38,861 nucleotides of DNA, taken from positions 1 through 38,861 of the IMG/VR virus record IMGVR_UViG_3300009419_000035. One strand, given 5' to 3'. The translations under genes and the position numbers were made by a program. This DNA is from a virus. Within the stretch, counting starts at the first letter, position 1; every line of letters starts with the position of its first letter. Shown here in pieces: positions 1,837 to 27,185 of this stretch. The notes under the pieces are model-generated. The model saw only the letters and a list, made by a program, of their open reading frames with translations. It ran no database searches and was not told where the DNA came from.

Positions 1837-2277
1837 ATGAAACTATCTGAAATTCAAGAGTCATGGACTAAAGACTGTAAGATCGATCAATTAAATCTTG
1901 GTCCAGAGTCAACCAAAACCCCAGAGTTGCACTCTAAGTATCTCAACATACTATCAAATTCTAAACTGCAACTGCGCAAGGCAGAGGCAGATTATTATCG
2001 CTTGCGCAGAACTAAGATGCGGTATTATCGTGGAGAACTTACACGCGAAGAACTCGAAGAACATGGATGGAATCAATACCAAGGTCTCAAACCACTGAAG
2101 AATGAGATGGATGATGTTCTTCAATGTGATGAAGAGATGATCAAGCAACAGGACAAGATTGATTATATCAAAGCAGTTCTATACCAATTAGAGCAGATTC
2201 TGCGGTCACTAAATAGTAGGACATGGGATATTAAGTCTGCGATTGAGTGGACCAAGTTTACAAATGGATTAATGTGA
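1837..2277 (+). CDS. uvsY: UvsY recombination mediator
   Basis: A 146-residue protein that matches T4 UvsY (137 residues) in length, charge pattern and position before uvsW. In T4 UvsY loads the recombinase UvsX onto gp32-coated single-stranded DNA. The N-terminal pattern LSEIQESWTKDCKID and the Lys/Arg-rich helix RLRRTKMRYYRGELT resemble the T4 segment around ALKARLDYYSG. The start has GAGGG 7 bases upstream. It overlaps the next gene and is driven by the promoter at 1782. Its partner UvsX is encoded at 24000. Confidence 0.9.
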   Translation: MKLSEIQESWTKDCKIDQLNLGPESTKTPELHSKYLNILSNSKLQLRKAEADYYRLRRTKMRYYRGELTREELEEHGWNQYQGLKPLKNEMDDVLQCDEEMIKQQDKIDYIKAVLYQLEQILRSLNSRTWDIKSAIEWTKFTNGLM

Positions 2278-3776
2278 CCGATCTAACCATCACGAAAAAA
2301 GATGAAGTGTATCTTAATGTGGAATGCGACCCCAGTATTTCACAGGAACTATCAGAGTATTTTACGTTTGATGTTCCAGGTGCAAAATTTATGCCCACCT
2401 ACCGTGCTAAGTTATGGGACGGTAAGGCACGTTTGTTTAACATGTGGACCAAAGAACTATACGTAGGACTTCTTCCATATCTCAGAGAATTTTGTCAGCG
2501 TAATGAGTATGAGATGGACGTTCAGATCGAACGTATCGGCGATCCCATAACCTACGAAGAACTGGTTGAATATGCTGACTCGCTGAATCTTCACTCACAA
2601 GGTAATCCGATCGAAGCGAGAGACTACCAGTTGGACGCTGTTAAGTATGCGATTCGCATCGGCAGAACTCTGCTACTGTCGCCAACTGCATCGGGTAAGT
2701 CGCTGATCATTTATCTTTTGATGCGTTACCATCAAAAGTTTGGACGCAAACAATTAATTATTGTTCCAACCACATCTCTGGTTGAACAAATGTATAAGGA
2801 CTTTCAAGATTATGCCTCGGAAACAGACTGGAAAGCAAGTTACAATTGTGCGAGAATCTATTCAGGGTTCGAGAAGTCGAATGAGTATCCCATTACAATA
2901 TCAACATGGCAGTCAATCTACAAATTACCTAAAAAGTTTTTTGATGGGTTTGATGTTATATATGGAGACGAAGCGCATCTTTTCAAAGCGAAATCGCTAA
3001 CATCAATCTTCAACAAATGCACCAAGACTAAGTTCCGGATCGGAACAACAGGAACTCTTGATGGAACTAAGACGCATAAGTTAATCCTCGAGGGATTGTT
3101 TGGCAAGGTGCACAAAGTTATCTCTACCAAAGAATTGATGGAGCAGGGGTCAGTCGCCGATCTGGCGATTGCTTGCCTCGTTCTTGATTATCCCGACGAA
3201 GAAAAGAAGGCGCTGGCGAAGTATACCTATCAGGAAGAAATGGACTGGTTGGTAACACACAAAAAACGGAACAACATAATCAAGAATCTGGCAACGACAC
3301 AGAAGGGCAACACGCTAGTTCTGTTTCAGTTTGTCGAGAAACATGGCGCAGTTTTGTATGACTTGATCAAAGAGAAGATCGGAAATTCCCGTCAAGTATT
3401 CTTTGTCCATGGTGGAACTGATACTCAGCAGCGCGAGAAGGTTCGTGAGATTACTGAGAAAGAAAAAGATGCAGTCATCATTGCATCGTATGGCACCTTT
3501 TCAACGGGAATAAATATAAGGAATCTGCATAATGTCATATTCGCTTCTCCGTCGAAATCCAGAGTAAGAAATCTCCAGTCGATTGGTAGAGGGTTGCGTA
3601 AGGGAGATGACAAAACTTCCTGTCGCCTTTTTGATATAGGTGATGACCTATCTTGGAAGAGCAGAAAAAATTATACTCTACTACACATGATAGAGAGAAT
3701 TAAGTTATATAATGAAGAAGGTTTTAAATACAAACTCGTGAGGATATCTACTGATGGAAACTCCAAAGGTACTTAA
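2274..3776 (+). CDS. uvsW: UvsW superfamily 2 DNA helicase
   Basis: An ATP-dependent helicase that in T4 drives branch migration and unwinds R-loops, helping switch replication from origin-dependent to recombination-dependent. It has a UvsW-type N-terminal domain, helicase motif I as SPTASGKSL, motif II as GDEAHLF, motif III as GTTGTLDG and motif VI as SIGRGLRKGD. The GTG at 2274 gives 500 residues, close to T4 UvsW (503), and overlaps the uvsY stop by four bases; another in-frame GTG at 2247 would add nine residues and cannot be excluded. The 3' end overlaps the next gene by 23 bases. Confidence 0.93.
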   Translation: MTDLTITKKDEVYLNVECDPSISQELSEYFTFDVPGAKFMPTYRAKLWDGKARLFNMWTKELYVGLLPYLREFCQRNEYEMDVQIERIGDPITYEELVEYADSLNLHSQGNPIEARDYQLDAVKYAIRIGRTLLLSPTASGKSLIIYLLMRYHQKFGRKQLIIVPTTSLVEQMYKDFQDYASETDWKASYNCARIYSGFEKSNEYPITISTWQSIYKLPKKFFDGFDVIYGDEAHLFKAKSLTSIFNKCTKTKFRIGTTGTLDGTKTHKLILEGLFGKVHKVISTKELMEQGSVADLAIACLVLDYPDEEKKALAKYTYQEEMDWLVTHKKRNNIIKNLATTQKGNTLVLFQFVEKHGAVLYDLIKEKIGNSRQVFFVHGGTDTQQREKVREITEKEKDAVIIASYGTFSTGINIRNLHNVIFASPSKSRVRNLQSIGRGLRKGDDKTSCRLFDIGDDLSWKSRKNYTLLHMIERIKLYNEEGFKYKLVRISTDGNSKGT

Positions 3777-4122
3777 ATTTAAAAATGGCGACCTAGTAAT
3801 CGCATCGATAAGGGACAGTGATACCAATGAATTATTCTGGATGGATAATCCCATTGCGGTAGTTCCCTATCCTGTCATTCAAGAAGATGTTGTTGGGGAA
3901 ACGTTTCTTCTGAAACCATGGATTGGTATTACTACAGAGAAAACTTTCCTGATTCCCAAATCCGAAATAATTACTGTCTGTGTATTGAGAGAAAATCTCC
4001 TCGCCCAGTATGAGAGATATATCTCAGGGGAAGTAAAACTTCCCGAGGAAACGCAAGAGACAAACGTCGACATGGAAATGTTGCACTCCCGACTACTCAG
4101 AAGCAGGAACCTACTCAATTAA
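3754..4122 (+). CDS. Sm-like fold conserved phage protein
   Basis: A 122-residue protein of unknown function. The start VLKFKNGDLVIASIRD followed by hydrophobic strands and a late tyrosine helix (LLAQYERYI) is the layout of small Sm/Hfq-like beta-barrel proteins seen in marine T4-like phages. A second, diverged relative is encoded at 19780. It overlaps uvsW by 23 bases, so it is probably translationally coupled to it. Its 3' end lies 40 bases from a minus-strand consensus promoter that would make RNA antisense to it. The Sm-like assignment comes from pattern memory and is not certain. Confidence 0.6.
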   Translation: METPKVLKFKNGDLVIASIRDSDTNELFWMDNPIAVVPYPVIQEDVVGETFLLKPWIGITTEKTFLIPKSEIITVCVLRENLLAQYERYISGEVKLPEETQETNVDMEMLHSRLLRSRNLLN

Positions 4123-4161
4123 GCAGTAGTAAAGCTATTATTCATCATACTCGACATAGTC

Positions 4162-4190
4162 ATTATACCTCGAATCGCGAGTGTTGTCAA
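4162..4190 (-). promoter_or_regulatory. Perfect-consensus minus-strand promoter
   Basis: On the minus strand: TTGACA (4190-4185), a 17-base spacer ending TTCGAGG, and TATAAT (4167-4162). All twelve bases match the sigma70 consensus. The flanks GCTTGAC and TTCGAGGTA-AATGA match the plus-strand promoter at 10584, so it belongs to the same phage promoter class. The start would be near 4155 and transcription would run antisense into the Sm-like gene and uvsW. Confidence 0.75.
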
Positions 4191-4223: not shown

Positions 4224-4252
4224 TTGACTAATTAGAAAAAGTATAGTATAAC
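4224..4252 (+). promoter_or_regulatory. Sigma70-type promoter for gene 55
   Basis: TTGACT (4224-4229), a 17-base spacer ending AGTATAG, and TATAAC (4247-4252). It lies 23 bases upstream of the gp55 ATG and is divergent from the minus-strand promoter at 4162-4190. Confidence 0.75.
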
Positions 4253-4274: not shown

Positions 4275-4886
4275 ATGACTGAAATACCAGAAAAGAATGT
4301 GAAAAAACCATTCAAGAAGAACAAGAAAAACAACATACATTATGTAGATAACTCTAAGTTTCTAGAAGAGATTACTAAGTATCGAAATAGTGTGCTTGCC
4401 GCAAAAGAAGCAGGAACATTGAAACCACGTGTTCCTAACTATATCGGAGAATGCTTTCTAAAGATCGCAACTCACTTGGCATACAAGAGTAACTTTATCA
4501 ATTATACCTATCGAGAAGAAATGGTTTCGGATGGTATTGAAAATTGTATTACTTACATTGATAATTTCAATCCTGAAAAATCTAATAATCCCTTCGCATA
4601 TTTCACTCAGATAACATACTATGCATTCCTCCGTCGTATCGCGAAGGAGAAACGCCAGCAGCAAACTAAGTATCGATACATGAGAAACATTGATGTCCAT
4701 GACTTGATCACTCAAGACCACGATACAGGCGATTACGGCAATGAGTTTATTGACTATGTTAAGAAGCAGATGGACATGATTGATGAGTTTGATAAACCCG
4801 ATGCACCAAAGGTCAATAACTTACCGAAGCGTCGACCGAAATATTTAGACCAAAAAATCATTGACAATTCTCTTGATATAGAGTAG
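4275..4886 (+). CDS. 55: gp55 late-transcription sigma factor
   Basis: A small sigma factor (203 residues; T4 gp55 is 185) that directs host RNA polymerase to late promoters of the TATAAATA type. The core YREEMVSDGIENCITYIDN and NPFAYFTQITYYAFLRRI is the conserved sigma region 2 segment that binds core polymerase and the -10 box. The N-terminus is very basic (about nine lysines in the first 24 residues). The ATG has GGAG upstream. Activation in T4 requires the clamp gp45, encoded at 14894. The stop codon lies inside the -10 box of the next promoter. Confidence 0.95.
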   Translation: MTEIPEKNVKKPFKKNKKNNIHYVDNSKFLEEITKYRNSVLAAKEAGTLKPRVPNYIGECFLKIATHLAYKSNFINYTYREEMVSDGIENCITYIDNFNPEKSNNPFAYFTQITYYAFLRRIAKEKRQQQTKYRYMRNIDVHDLITQDHDTGDYGNEFIDYVKKQMDMIDEFDKPDAPKVNNLPKRRPKYLDQKIIDNSLDIE

Positions 4887-9508: not shown

Positions 9509-9537
9509 TTGACTTTTTCTAAAAAGACAGGTATACT
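9509..9537 (+). promoter_or_regulatory. Class A promoter for HAD gene
   Basis: TTGACT (9509-9514), 17 bases, TATACT (9532-9537), within the shared context GGCTTGACTTTTT and CAGG just before the -10. The expected start falls at about 9544, the A of the ATG of the next gene, which implies a leaderless mRNA. Confidence 0.85.
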
Positions 9538-10583: not shown

Positions 10584-10612
10584 TTGACTTTTGCCTCGTT
10601 TCGAGGTAGAAT
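10584..10612 (+). promoter_or_regulatory. Class A promoter for CobT-like gene
   Basis: TTGACT (10584-10589), 17 bases, TAGAAT (10607-10612). The spacer contains a perfect dyad, CCTCG-TTT-CGAGG (10594-10606), directly against the -10 box. Confidence 0.85.
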
Positions 10613-14386: not shown

Positions 14387-14887
14387 ATGACAATTAAATA
14401 CAAGTATGACGAGGGTGATCTCCTACGGGAGATTACCCAATATATTGATGCCACCTATGGTGAGCATTACTCACAGAATCAATACCAAGCAACCGAGTTT
14501 ATTATCGACGGTGGTCATGGTATTGGTTTTACTGTAGGCAATATCCTGAAGTATGCCCAACGCTACGGTCACAAAGGAACACCTGAAGACTGGCGTAAGG
14601 ATTTGTTGAAAGTCATTCACTATGCAATCATTGCGATGCATGTGCACGACAAGGAACAACAGAGTAGTATACCTGATCCATTTGAAAAAGTCAATAGTAA
14701 ACCTTATGAATTGAAGACCTCGTTGTCGTATTCAGATACTATTACTGTCAAACCAGAATATGCGACTGCCCCCAACTGGCATTTACATAACATGGGAACC
14801 ACTTCTCTATTGACTTCCGACACTATTCCCAGTATAATTGAATTTACTGCAGAAAACAGTAAGAAAACTAAAAAGAAGAAAGACTAA
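14387..14887 (+). CDS. DUF3310-like protein
   Basis: A 166-residue protein. The central block HGIGFTVGNILKYAQRYGHKG followed by DWRKDLLKVIHYA matches the DUF3310 pattern found in many phages (also called SaV-like), often next to nucleotide-metabolism genes; its function is not known. The C-terminal third is hydrophilic and ends in a lysine run (KKTKKKKD). The ATG follows AAGGAG by about 7 bases, 9 bases after the CobS-like stop. A strong promoter for the next gene lies in its 3' part (14810-14838) and a weaker antisense promoter candidate at 14666-14694. Confidence 0.8.
   Translation: MTIKYKYDEGDLLREITQYIDATYGEHYSQNQYQATEFIIDGGHGIGFTVGNILKYAQRYGHKGTPEDWRKDLLKVIHYAIIAMHVHDKEQQSSIPDPFEKVNSKPYELKTSLSYSDTITVKPEYATAPNWHLHNMGTTSLLTSDTIPSIIEFTAENSKKTKKKKD
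14810..14838 (+). promoter_or_regulatory. Promoter inside DUF3310 gene, for gene 45
   Basis: TTGACT (14810-14815), exactly 17 bases, TATAAT (14833-14838). Eleven of twelve hexamer bases match. It lies 55 bases upstream of the sliding-clamp start and should give the clamp its own transcript. Confidence 0.7.
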
Positions 14888-16492: not shown

Positions 16493-17399
16493 AAAGTATC
16501 GTCCTCACAAACTTGATGATTGTATTCTCCCCGATGATCAACTAAAGACATTCCGCGAGTTCGTTGCGACTGGTGAAATTCCAAACATGCTTCTCTGCGG
16601 TTCAGCAGGTGTAGGTAAGACTACGATTGCTCGTGCGATTTGCGAAGAACTTGGATGTGACTATATCATCATCAACGGTTCAGAAGAATCAGGTATTGAT
16701 GTTCTTCGCACCAAGATTCGAGAGTTCGCTTCGTCAGTTTCCTTTGGCGGTAAGACTAAGGTAGTTATTCTAGACGAAGCAGATTATCTCAATCCAAACT
16801 CTACGCAACCTGCCTTGCGTGCATTTATCGAAGAGTTTGCAAACAACTGTCGGTTTATCTTCACATGTAACTTTAAGAACCGAATCATTGCTCCTCTTCA
16901 CAGTCGGACTGCTGTCATCGAATTTAAGTTGACAAAGGCAGACCGTCCTAAGATGGCAGGTCGTTTCATGAAGCGTCTGTCTGACATTCTTGCAACTGAG
17001 AATGTTACATTCGATGAGAAGGTTGTCGCTGAAGTTCTCAAGAAGCACTTCCCCGACTATCGCCGTGTTCTAAACGAACTGCAACGTTACAGTGTCTCCG
17101 GAACTATTGATGAAGGTATCCTCGTCAATGTTCAAGAAGTCAACATGAAAGAACTTGTTACCTCATTGAAGAGCAAAGACTTCAAGAAGATGCGTAACTG
17201 GGTGGTCGATAACATCGACAATGACCCAAATCTTATCTTCCGCAAGATCTATGATACCATTCTAGATGATGTCAAGTATCCTTCGCAGTTGGTTCTGCTG
17301 CTTGCAGATTATCAGTATAAGGCAGCGTTTGCTGCTAATCCTGAGATCAATCTTGTTGCTTGTCTCGCTGAAATTATGGCAGGGATGGAGTGGAAATAA
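16458..17399 (+). CDS. 44: gp44 clamp loader large subunit
   Basis: The AAA+ ATPase subunit (four per complex with one gp62) that opens and loads the gp45 clamp. The Walker A is GSAGVGKTT (residues 48-56), Walker B is VVILDEADYL (102-111), and the arginine finger lies in APLHSRTA. The start MNVSKEQFLWVEKYRPHKLDD is typical of the family. The length of 313 residues compares with 319 in T4. It begins inside the epimerase gene and its TAA overlaps the ATG of gene 62 by one base. Confidence 0.96.
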   Translation: MNVSKEQFLWVEKYRPHKLDDCILPDDQLKTFREFVATGEIPNMLLCGSAGVGKTTIARAICEELGCDYIIINGSEESGIDVLRTKIREFASSVSFGGKTKVVILDEADYLNPNSTQPALRAFIEEFANNCRFIFTCNFKNRIIAPLHSRTAVIEFKLTKADRPKMAGRFMKRLSDILATENVTFDEKVVAEVLKKHFPDYRRVLNELQRYSVSGTIDEGILVNVQEVNMKELVTSLKSKDFKKMRNWVVDNIDNDPNLIFRKIYDTILDDVKYPSQLVLLLADYQYKAAFAANPEINLVACLAEIMAGMEWK

Positions 17400-20779: not shown

Positions 20780-23317
20780 ATGAAATTTTATACATGCGCA
20801 CACCAATATGGTTCCAAGGTTTTAGTCCGAGGCGTCCATAATGGTGTGCGCTTCACCAAACGAGATGACTTCAGTCCCACCCTGTTTGTAAAATCAAAGG
20901 GTGGCGCAGAAACACAATACAAGTCTCTGTATGGAGAAAATCTCCAACCGATTGAATTTGAAGATAACAATGCTGCCAAGCAGTTTGTTCAGACATATGG
21001 TCAAGCAGAGAATTCTGAAATCTTTGGCCAAACCAACTATGGTTACCAGTATATTACAAAGAAATATCCTGGAGAAATTCAGTGGGATATGTCTCAACTT
21101 AATATTCAGACTATCGATATCGAGACTTCAGCAGAGCATGGGTTTCCTGATGTAAACAATCCTATCGAAGAAGTTCTTCTGATCACGGTAAAGAATCTTA
21201 TCACTCGTCAGATTATCACCTTCGGTTGTGGTGAGTTTGATGACAAGAACTCTGAGATTGTCCAGACTCTGAGGGATTCAGGTAACAAGTTTCTCTATGT
21301 AAAATGCGACGATGAGCGCGACTTGCTAGAAACCTTCCTGCGTTTCTATTCTGACAATCACCCAGACATTATTACAGGTTGGAACTGCGAACTCTTCGAC
21401 GTTGCGTATCTAATCTCTCGGATCGATCGTCTGTTCTGCACCGAAGAAGATACAACCATGCGCAAGAAGTTCTCGCCATGGGGTCTGGTTCGTCGTAAGA
21501 ATTTGACAATCATGGGTCGCGAACATATCTCTTATGATATTACTGGTGTTGCAGTTATTGACTATCTCGATCTCTATAAGAAGTTTACGTATACTCGACA
21601 AGAAAGTTACAAGTTGGATCACATTGCCAAGGAAGAACTTGGTAAGAAAAAACTTGAGCATCCGTATGAAACATTCCGCGAGTTCTATACAAAAGACTGG
21701 ACACGGTTCGTAGAGTATAACATCATCGACGTTGAGATCGTTGACGAACTTGAGCGCAAGATGAAACTGATTGAACTTGTGCTTACGATGGCATACGATG
21801 CTAAGTGTAATTATACGGATGTGTTCTCACAGGTTCGCACGTGGGATTGTATTATCTACAATCACTTGCATGATCAAAATATCCAGATTCCCCAGAAGAA
21901 AGAAAACAGGGGTAGGACTATTGAGGGTGCATATGTGCAAGAACCAAAGGCAGGAAGGTATGACTGGGTTGTTTCCTTTGATGCTACCTCGCTGTATCCA
22001 TCAATCATCATGCAGTACAATCAATCACCAGAGACTTTCGTTCAGGGTGTAGTAAAAGACACAACGGTGAAAGGATTGCTCAAGCATAGTTATAATCTCG
22101 AAGATCTCAAACAAGATGATGTTTGCATGACTGCTAATGGTTATTGTTATACTCGTAAAAAGATGGGAATGTTTCCTGAGATTGTTCAGAAGTTCTTTGA
22201 TGACCGACAGCGGTATAAGAAACTGATGATTATCGCACAGAAAGAATATGAGGAAACTAAAAATCCCAAACTAAAGAACGACATCTCGAAGTATAATAAC
22301 TTTCAGATGGCAAGAAAGATTCAGTTGAACTCACTGTTCGGTGCGTTGGCAAATGAGTATTTCCGCTACTATGATGCTCGCATTGCCGAGGGCATCACTA
22401 CGACTGGTCAGTATATTATTCAGGAAGTAGGTAAGGCACTTGACGTCTATCTTAACAAGGTCGTAGGAACAAATGGACACAACTACTCTTTCTACAGTGA
22501 TACTGATTCTTGCTATATTTCCTTGGACCCTCTTGTTCGTAAGTTCTATGGCAATCTATCACGTGATAAACTCATTGATGTTCTCGATAAAATCTGCGAG
22601 GAGAAAATCACAGAGGCAATCAACAAGAGTTGCGATGGACTTGCGGACTACACGAATGCATTTCAAAAGAAAATTGTATTCAAACGTGAGGCAATCGCAG
22701 AACGTGGTCTCTGGGTTGCGAAGAAAAGGTATGCACTCAACGTCTACGATAATGAAGGTGTCCGATACAAAGACCCGAAACTTAAAGTCATGGGTCTCGA
22801 GATCGTTCGTTCTTCCACTCCAGCACCTGTTCGCGAAAGTCTCAAGGAAGCAGTAAGACTATCATTGACTGCAGATGAAGCAACTCTACAGAAGTTTATT
22901 GAGCACACTCGTGGGTTGTTTAATAAAATGGAACCTGAAGATATTGCTTTCCCGCGAAGCGTCAATGGACTTGTTAAGTATACCTCAAGAGCAGACATCT
23001 ATGCAAAGGGAACACCGATGCATGTTCGTGGTGCGCTGATGTATAACTATTTACTCGAGAAGCACAATCTTACTATGAAGTATGAAGCAATCCAAGAAGG
23101 CGAGAAGATTAAGTTCCTATACTTAAAGGAACCAAATACTATTCGTGAAAATTGTATTGGTTTTATTGGGAAAATTCCAAAAGAGCTTGACATTCATAAG
23201 TATGTAGATTATAATACAATGTTCAATAAGAGTTTTCTTGAACCATTAAAACAAATTGTAGAAGGCATTGGTTGGAATACAGAACCTGTTGCCACGCTAG
23301 AGGATATGTTTGGATGA
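20780..23317 (+). CDS. 43: gp43 DNA polymerase (family B)
   Basis: The replicative polymerase with 3'-5' proofreading. Exonuclease motif I is TIDIETSAE (Asp113, Glu115), motif II GWNCELFDVAYL and motif III YNIIDVEIVDE. Polymerase motif A is FDATSLYPSI (Asp401), motif B KIQLNSLFGALAN, and motif C YSDTDSCY (Asp574, Asp576), all intact. It has 845 residues versus 898 in T4. It starts after a GAGGG site and has its own promoter. The end overlaps the methyltransferase gene as ATGA and carries a hidden promoter at 23187. No intein or frameshift is seen. Confidence 0.97.
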   Translation: MKFYTCAHQYGSKVLVRGVHNGVRFTKRDDFSPTLFVKSKGGAETQYKSLYGENLQPIEFEDNNAAKQFVQTYGQAENSEIFGQTNYGYQYITKKYPGEIQWDMSQLNIQTIDIETSAEHGFPDVNNPIEEVLLITVKNLITRQIITFGCGEFDDKNSEIVQTLRDSGNKFLYVKCDDERDLLETFLRFYSDNHPDIITGWNCELFDVAYLISRIDRLFCTEEDTTMRKKFSPWGLVRRKNLTIMGREHISYDITGVAVIDYLDLYKKFTYTRQESYKLDHIAKEELGKKKLEHPYETFREFYTKDWTRFVEYNIIDVEIVDELERKMKLIELVLTMAYDAKCNYTDVFSQVRTWDCIIYNHLHDQNIQIPQKKENRGRTIEGAYVQEPKAGRYDWVVSFDATSLYPSIIMQYNQSPETFVQGVVKDTTVKGLLKHSYNLEDLKQDDVCMTANGYCYTRKKMGMFPEIVQKFFDDRQRYKKLMIIAQKEYEETKNPKLKNDISKYNNFQMARKIQLNSLFGALANEYFRYYDARIAEGITTTGQYIIQEVGKALDVYLNKVVGTNGHNYSFYSDTDSCYISLDPLVRKFYGNLSRDKLIDVLDKICEEKITEAINKSCDGLADYTNAFQKKIVFKREAIAERGLWVAKKRYALNVYDNEGVRYKDPKLKVMGLEIVRSSTPAPVRESLKEAVRLSLTADEATLQKFIEHTRGLFNKMEPEDIAFPRSVNGLVKYTSRADIYAKGTPMHVRGALMYNYLLEKHNLTMKYEAIQEGEKIKFLYLKEPNTIRENCIGFIGKIPKELDIHKYVDYNTMFNKSFLEPLKQIVEGIGWNTEPVATLEDMFG
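23187..23215 (+). promoter_or_regulatory. Perfect-consensus promoter inside gene 43
   Basis: TTGACA (23187-23192), exactly 17 bases, TATAAT (23210-23215), preceded by GC as in the class A promoters. All twelve hexamer bases match. It is about 100 bases before the methyltransferase start and would also feed uvsX and 41. Confidence 0.75.
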
Positions 23318-26605: not shown

Positions 26606-27185
26606 TTTTATAGAGTTATATCCGAACGTATTGACTGCTGAGGAATGCGCCGAGGCATGTGATAGAATCGATGATATTATTTCGCGCCCAAATCCTGGGA
26701 ATGCTTGTGTTTTATCTGACGATAGTTCTAGAACCGATTGGAATATATTTGTTGGTAGATATGGTTCATTGAAAGCAACAGAGGATAAGATAGTCGAAGC
26801 ATTGGCACGTGGTTGGCGCAAGTATAATACTAAATATTCTGCATCTTCTAAAGCATTTTTTGAAGTCTTGTCACCAGGATGGAAATTCCAGCGCTCAGAC
26901 ACAGGAGGAGGATTCCATCAATGGCACCACGAACAAGGATCGGGTAGAGAATCTCCAGGAAGATTTGCAGTTTGGATGTTATACTTGAATGATGTTGAAG
27001 AGGGTGGACAAACTGAATTCAAACATCAAGAATTAGCATTTACGCCTACTGCTGGAACATTGGTTATATGGCCCGCTGCGTATACCCACATCCATAGAGC
27101 AAATCCAGATCTAATCGGGAAAAAATATATTGCGACGGGATGGTTTGTTTATCCTGAAAAAGATAGATTTCGAGAAAACCGTTGA
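26595..27185 (+). CDS. 2OG-Fe(II) oxygenase (prolyl-hydroxylase-like)
   Basis: A 196-residue dioxygenase of the prolyl 4-hydroxylase type found in T4-like cyanophages. The first iron ligands lie in FHQWHHEQG (His111 or His112 with Glu113, in place of the usual HxD), the distal His in YTHIHRA (165 or 167), and a 2OG-binding Lys may be in KKYIATGW. The first domain residues fit the TTG at 26595, 10 bases after GGGAG; an ATG at 26535 is possible and would deepen the overlap with gene 41. The substrate may be a protein, sugar or nucleobase. The TGA stop lies inside the next promoter. Confidence 0.85.
   Translation: MTSNFIELYPNVLTAEECAEACDRIDDIISRPNPGNACVLSDDSSRTDWNIFVGRYGSLKATEDKIVEALARGWRKYNTKYSASSKAFFEVLSPGWKFQRSDTGGGFHQWHHEQGSGRESPGRFAVWMLYLNDVEEGGQTEFKHQELAFTPTAGTLVIWPAAYTHIHRANPDLIGKKYIATGWFVYPEKDRFRENR

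Follow-up and report, generated by a model that had tools for sequence, protein, structure and literature searches.

A σ70-type promoter is located on the minus strand just upstream of gp55, the gene for the late-transcription sigma factor, in the 38,861-nucleotide stretch of T4-like phage DNA analysed here (the window), and it is directed back towards an Sm-like gene and uvsW. The same place and orientation are occupied by such a promoter in most gp55-bearing relatives, which infect bacteria of oceans and lakes. This conservation lies far beyond chance, and the phages probably use the promoter. Its main role may be cis-antisense control of the uvsW and Sm-like genes, to which we give a probability of roughly one half.

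Antisense promoter and flanking genes

Between 4190 and 4162 the minus strand reads TTGACA (4185-4190), a 17-base spacer, ACACTCGCGATTCGAGG (4168-4184), and TATAAT (4162-4167), exactly as reported in the initial annotation. The spacer contains CTCG..CGAG. A start-site element, GACTATGTCGAG (4150-4161, minus strand), follows and forms a weak inverted repeat around the predicted transcription start, the G of a TGT at 4155, 7 bases past the -10 box. The window contains only two exact TTGACA/TATAAT promoters with 15-19 bases between the boxes, where 0.03 are expected from dinucleotide shuffles; the other is in the sense direction at 23187. The sequences TTCGAGGTA-AATGA and GCTTGAC, said to be common to this site and the plus-strand promoter at 10584, are indeed present in both.

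The gp55 gene (4275-4886, plus strand; phrog_234, 1.5e-59) is preceded by its own sense promoter (4224-4252, plus strand), composed of TTGACT (4224-4229), 17 bases and TATAAC (4247-4252). The two promoters are back-to-back with their -35 boxes 33 bases apart, as had been described. The first bases of the predicted antisense RNA (4155 to 4123, minus strand) would be intergenic, and the first gene beneath it is the Sm/LSm-like gene (3754-4122, plus strand; PF20198/DUF6561, phrog_471). If transcription continues, the next gene overlapped is uvsW (2247-3776, plus strand), whose identification as a helicase gene is borne out by a UvsW_N domain. The AlphaFold model of the DUF6561/phrog_471 protein (mean pLDDT 75.6, residues 1-90 mostly >80) matches the Sm/LSm-like crystal structure 3by7 (Foldseek E 3e-6, TMt 0.86), so the name Sm-like is a fair one. 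A σ70-like promoter at 1782 belongs to the uvsY/uvsW genes, and no TATAAATA motif is found directly upstream of them, the nearest in the window being at 1164; uvsW may therefore not be strictly late in this phage.

Conservation among relatives

Relatives were collected via gp55, and isolates via their annotation. A promoter was called when at least 10 of the 12 hexamer bases matched, with 16-18 bases of spacing, on the strand opposite gp55 and just upstream of it. This arrangement was detected in 202 of 247 gp55-bearing loci, compared with 6.9% of 4132 windows drawn at random and matched for length and strand. Carriers among isolates are the cyanophages Syn9, Syn19, ACG-2014j, S-SKS1 and S-SM2 and the pelagiphage Mosig; the methylophage Melnitz has weaker -35 and -10 boxes and the same start motif. 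In T2, gp55 has different neighbours and no antisense promoter is present there. Presence follows the space available, with the promoter found in 192 of 209 loci that have at least 60 bases between gp55 and the gene upstream of it and in 6 of 33 where the gap is shorter. Some of the large-gap loci that lack it probably reflect mis-detected upstream genes. Judging from the 27 loci with a gap <60 bases that lack it, the promoter is dispensable in some phages.

A σ70-type early promoter with 16-18 bases between the boxes is shared by the window and 154 unique sites in relatives, among which the -35 box is TTGACA in 109, the -10 box is TATAAT in 70 and the spacing is 17 in 98. Between lineages the hexamers are kept and the spacer sequence is free to differ. 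Conservation of both hexamers and of the 17-base spacing in related phages, which the initial annotation had put forward as a check, is complete in 21 unique close relatives, where only three spacer bases (4175, 4177 and 4178) vary. Positions 4154-4173 include no variable columns in these relatives, the adjoining coding region being variable at 15-55% of its columns, and an alignment of 7 sequences gave the same pattern. The fixed place and orientation in very divergent phages, with hexamers kept while the spacer drifts, point to selection for promoter activity at this site.

The view that this is a genuine phage promoter is strongly supported by the retention of hexamers and spacing in both close and distant relatives, and the site is very probably functional as a promoter. 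A chance match is ruled out by the expectation from shuffles, the number of loci carrying the promoter and its invariance in the close relatives.

The distance between the two back-to-back promoters is not constant in the relatives. In Syn9 (L255 23700-23769; Syn9 123700-123769) the two promoters have -35 boxes that almost touch, in the sequence TTGACAAACTTGTCAA, and two polymerases could therefore probably not bind both promoters together in this phage.

Sense copies of the promoter

A scan of the Mosig genome found the combination of promoter and start site nowhere except upstream of gp55; in cyanophages the combination recurs within genomes. The pattern formed by the -10 box and AACACTGNCAGGGTTG occurs in 40 stretches in IMG/VR, in each of which TTGAC is correctly spaced upstream. 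Roughly half of these stretches have it antisense ahead of gp55, and in many others it precedes an open reading frame in the sense direction, as does the Syn19 copy at 17298, upstream of cpeT. In S-SKS1 the first 21 bases, ACCTTTGTTAGGGTTGAAGAG, are the same in the antisense copy and in one that precedes a helicase gene. The window, a 38.9 kb fragment, contains one copy of its own start-site element, TATAATGACTATGTCGAG, which is matched in ACG-2014j by a sense TATAATGACTATGTTGAG before a small gene. Scanning with the window element recovered 97 stretches with 80 readable sites, 58 of them antisense to gp55 and 22 elsewhere. A downstream open reading frame of at least 40 codons is present at 19 of the 22, its ATG typically 17-30 bases past the start. 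Since the sense copies are upstream of open reading frames, the promoter direction is the one in which the element is read.

Sense copies of the window element or a close variant also precede a protein of unknown function, MSMQLMSHAFTTTSTRKRK... (133-136 aa, phrog_27048), as at position 7292 of L400 (minus strand) and in L324 and L369.

At least four of the five bases before TGT agree between the gp55-antisense promoter and another promoter of the same genome in 8 of 12 genomes, against a mean of 1.7 and a maximum of 6 in 5000 re-dealings between genomes. The antisense site thus looks like one of the early-promoter cassettes of these phages, duplicated and kept antisense.

Strong early promoters repeated within a genome, as in PeSLs, are found in the relatives, and the site could be a mobile cassette of this kind, serving recombination or inherited in place, whose antisense firing has little effect. 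The occurrence of the same cassette at several places and in several genomes is consistent with this, as are the 21 bases common to the S-SKS1 copies, and PeSLs shuffle modules in T4-type phages according to the statements on them in PMC4503421 (citing Arbiol 2010 and Comeau 2014). We nevertheless regard a mobile cassette of little effect as rather unlikely, given that very divergent phages share one place and orientation for it and have kept the hexamers while the spacer has drifted.

Inverted repeat at the start site

TGT is located 4-6 bases past the -10 box (mode 5) in 196 of the 202 sites, so that its G coincides with +1 or adjoins it. The predicted start, TG(+1)T, is flanked by the arms of a short inverted repeat, which differ between phages and remain complementary. 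Examples are AACGG-TGT-CCGTT in Mosig, AACC-ATGTAAG-GGTT in Syn19, GGTCT-ATGT-AGACC in L175, CAGC-ATGT-GCTG in L025 and AAGAG-TGTAG-CTCTT in L010. Stems are 3-5 pairs with no T tract after them, and loops range from 3 to 8. The repeat of the window itself is weak (GAC..GTC or ACT..AGT), and in one group (several of L020-L047) a repeat is nearly absent.

Pairing was assessed with flexible geometry and at least 4 contiguous pairs, using as the null 3' flanks re-dealt among sites, a test that controls only partly for relatedness. Pairing was found in 46 of 90 unique sites, where 9.9 were expected (sd 2.8, maximum 21 in 1000 re-deals), and, when one site was kept for each distinct 5' flank, in 31 of 59 (5.5 expected, maximum 14 in 2000). 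The arms comprise 28 distinct sequences. To our knowledge, a covarying repeat across the start site is in no standard description of σ70 promoters.

Simple antisense control leaves this repeat unaccounted for. It is possible, though we suggest it only tentatively, that the repeat marks a separate type of promoter. Its arms, at about -6 to -2 and +3 to +9, would pair with the start in the loop, and this pairing would tune initiation or escape by host RNA polymerase. The gp55-antisense copy would be kept to switch between early transcription and the late programme of uvsW/gp55. Ordinary RNA polymerase would suffice to test the covarying repeat in vitro.

A dyad across +1 might instead be an operator at which a dimeric phage regulator controls the antisense promoter and a few sense early promoters, and the arm shared by sense and antisense copies in 8 of 12 genomes would fit such a site. 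The loop varies from 3 to 8, however, and arms differ between copies in one genome (TGGTTGTCC and AAGGTGTCGCCTT in G003), features that suit a hairpin better than a protein half-site. As no candidate regulator gene was found either, an operator seems very doubtful. The repeat also folds on the plus strand just past the Sm-like stop codon, where it could form the 3' end of the uvsW/Sm-like mRNA, the promoter match being secondary. This would be extremely improbable and is largely refuted by the sense copies, since at other loci, where the strand corresponding to this one is not the mRNA, the element travels with -35 and -10 boxes and a downstream start codon, and the hairpin has no T tract behind it.

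Predicted antisense RNA

The RNA had been proposed to be regulatory, the only nearby minus-strand frame having 12 codons. That frame is present, but its ATG at 4157 precedes the predicted start at 4155. No frame of at least 10 codons with a ribosome-binding motif was found near the start in 125 of 159 unique loci, which speaks against a protein product.

In a profile across lineages, whose TGT columns are fixed by anchoring, only the two hexamers and about -6 to +15 carry information content, which is near background from about +16. The body of the RNA thus appears to be constrained only by the genes underneath. No conserved antisense terminator was detected; candidates occur in 26 of 168 loci, compared with 9 for the opposite strand, and their places differ. 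A terminator-like hairpin is located in the window at 3487-3468 (minus strand), inside uvsW and about 670 bases from the antisense start, and only some other lineages have a hairpin like it at a comparable position. Rfam gave no match above chance for the antisense RNA. Unusual folding was not found in it; a long-range fold at 4056-4156 has a z of -1.6, and its 3' partner region varies in relatives.

A strong promoter without an open reading frame could nonetheless produce a trans-acting small RNA, and in the close clade the first 50 bases of the RNA are nearly fixed. A conserved seed or structure with a terminator would mark such an RNA, and the searches between lineages recovered neither past about +16, nor did Rfam or folding lend it support, making a trans-acting RNA quite improbable. 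The proposal of a regulatory RNA in place of a protein therefore stands as regards the missing conserved small frame and does not extend to a defined RNA with a conserved body, structure or terminator. With an orientation antisense to the Sm-like and uvsW genes, conservation that fades by about +16 and neither conserved frame nor terminator, antisense transcription acting in cis would fit better than a defined small RNA.

Proposed role

Under cis-antisense control, host RNA polymerase would fire early in infection from this σ70 promoter, starting at about 4155 on the minus strand and proceeding towards uvsW. Antisense transcription would oppose sense transcription of the Sm-like and uvsW genes through collision, sense-antisense duplex formation or both. 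The uvsW/Sm-like mRNA would stay scarce or short up to the time when early promoters are silenced by late modification of the polymerase. The firing of the promoter, its timing and its effect on uvsW/Sm-like expression are what we infer from the sequences compared. A reason to hold uvsW back early would come from T4, in which UvsW is expressed late and clears R-loops from origins (PMC3016281).

The same connection allows another reading, in which the antisense RNA primes replication: past the promoter it would form an R-loop that starts the leading strand and is later removed by UvsW. In T4, oriF and oriG combine a promoter with an unwinding element and oriE relies on an early promoter; R-loops of this kind are unwound by UvsW (PMC3016281). 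The promoter described here adjoins uvsY/uvsW, and the inverted repeat in the displaced strand could conceivably hold an R-loop open. Against this, the A+T-rich unwinding element of a T4 R-loop origin was not found downstream of the promoter, where A+T is 0.67-0.72 against a background of 0.655. GC skew does not turn at gp55 in Mosig or Syn9, the detrended minimum of Syn9 being about 22 kb away, and the sense copies of the cassette precede ordinary small genes. A primer thus appears unlikely.

The sea holds T4-like cyanophages and pelagiphages in abundance. A host-type promoter kept antisense at the late-sigma locus by phages that infect cyanobacteria, SAR11 and methylotrophs would represent a specific, testable control point. 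Cyanomyoviruses are without motA and asi homologues (PMC2984593), which bears on how they time gene expression.

Other promoter-like sites in the window

A second antisense promoter-like site, absent from the initial annotation, is found at 14694-14666 (minus strand), reading TTGACT, 17 bases and TATACT, followed by ACTCTGTTG. It is inside the gene at 14387-14887, just past its phrog_480 domain and upstream of gp45. In the relative L471 most of the spacer bases of this site differ, and hexamers and start stay. Plus-strand promoters at 9509, 10160, 10584, 12932 and 13165 are of one type, GGCTTGACT-17-TA(G/T)A(A/C/T)T, and several of these have an inverted repeat within the spacer, for example CCTCGTTTCGAGG at 10584. 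A promoter at 27182 (plus strand; TTGACA, 17 bases, TATAGT) directly precedes a tRNA-like sequence, GCCATAGCTCAGCTGGATAGAGCAA.

Comparison with known systems

The stem-loops of PeSLs in T4-type phages were reportedly described by Arbiol in 2010 and Comeau in 2014 as transcription terminators. The cassette resembles PeSLs, as far as these are characterized in PMC4503421, in combining a strong σ70 early promoter with a stem-loop and in being copied around the genome. It differs in that the stem, of 3-5 pairs and without a T tract, spans +1, in that the scan of the window lists no terminator-like site at 4150-4190, and in its constant antisense place before gp55. T4 oriF (uvsY), oriG and oriE are similar in having a promoter near uvsY/uvsW and a transcript that need not code (PMC3016281), and differ from the present site, which has a host-type promoter and neither an A+T-rich unwinding element nor a skew change.

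Sense and antisense transcription of T4 gene 32 is said to have been described by Belin in 1987; to the extent of that description, it is likewise antisense transcription in a T4-type phage, at a different gene. A further parallel is CfrI of cyanophage S-PM2 (Millard 2010), which in the account given in PMC2984593 is an antisense RNA of about 225 nt from the psbA/homing endonuclease locus of a T4-like cyanophage, proposed to regulate the genes that it overlaps. Whereas the CfrI RNA was measured, at psbA, the promoter described here is a predicted one, located at uvsW/gp55 and found in cyano-, pelagi- and methylophages.
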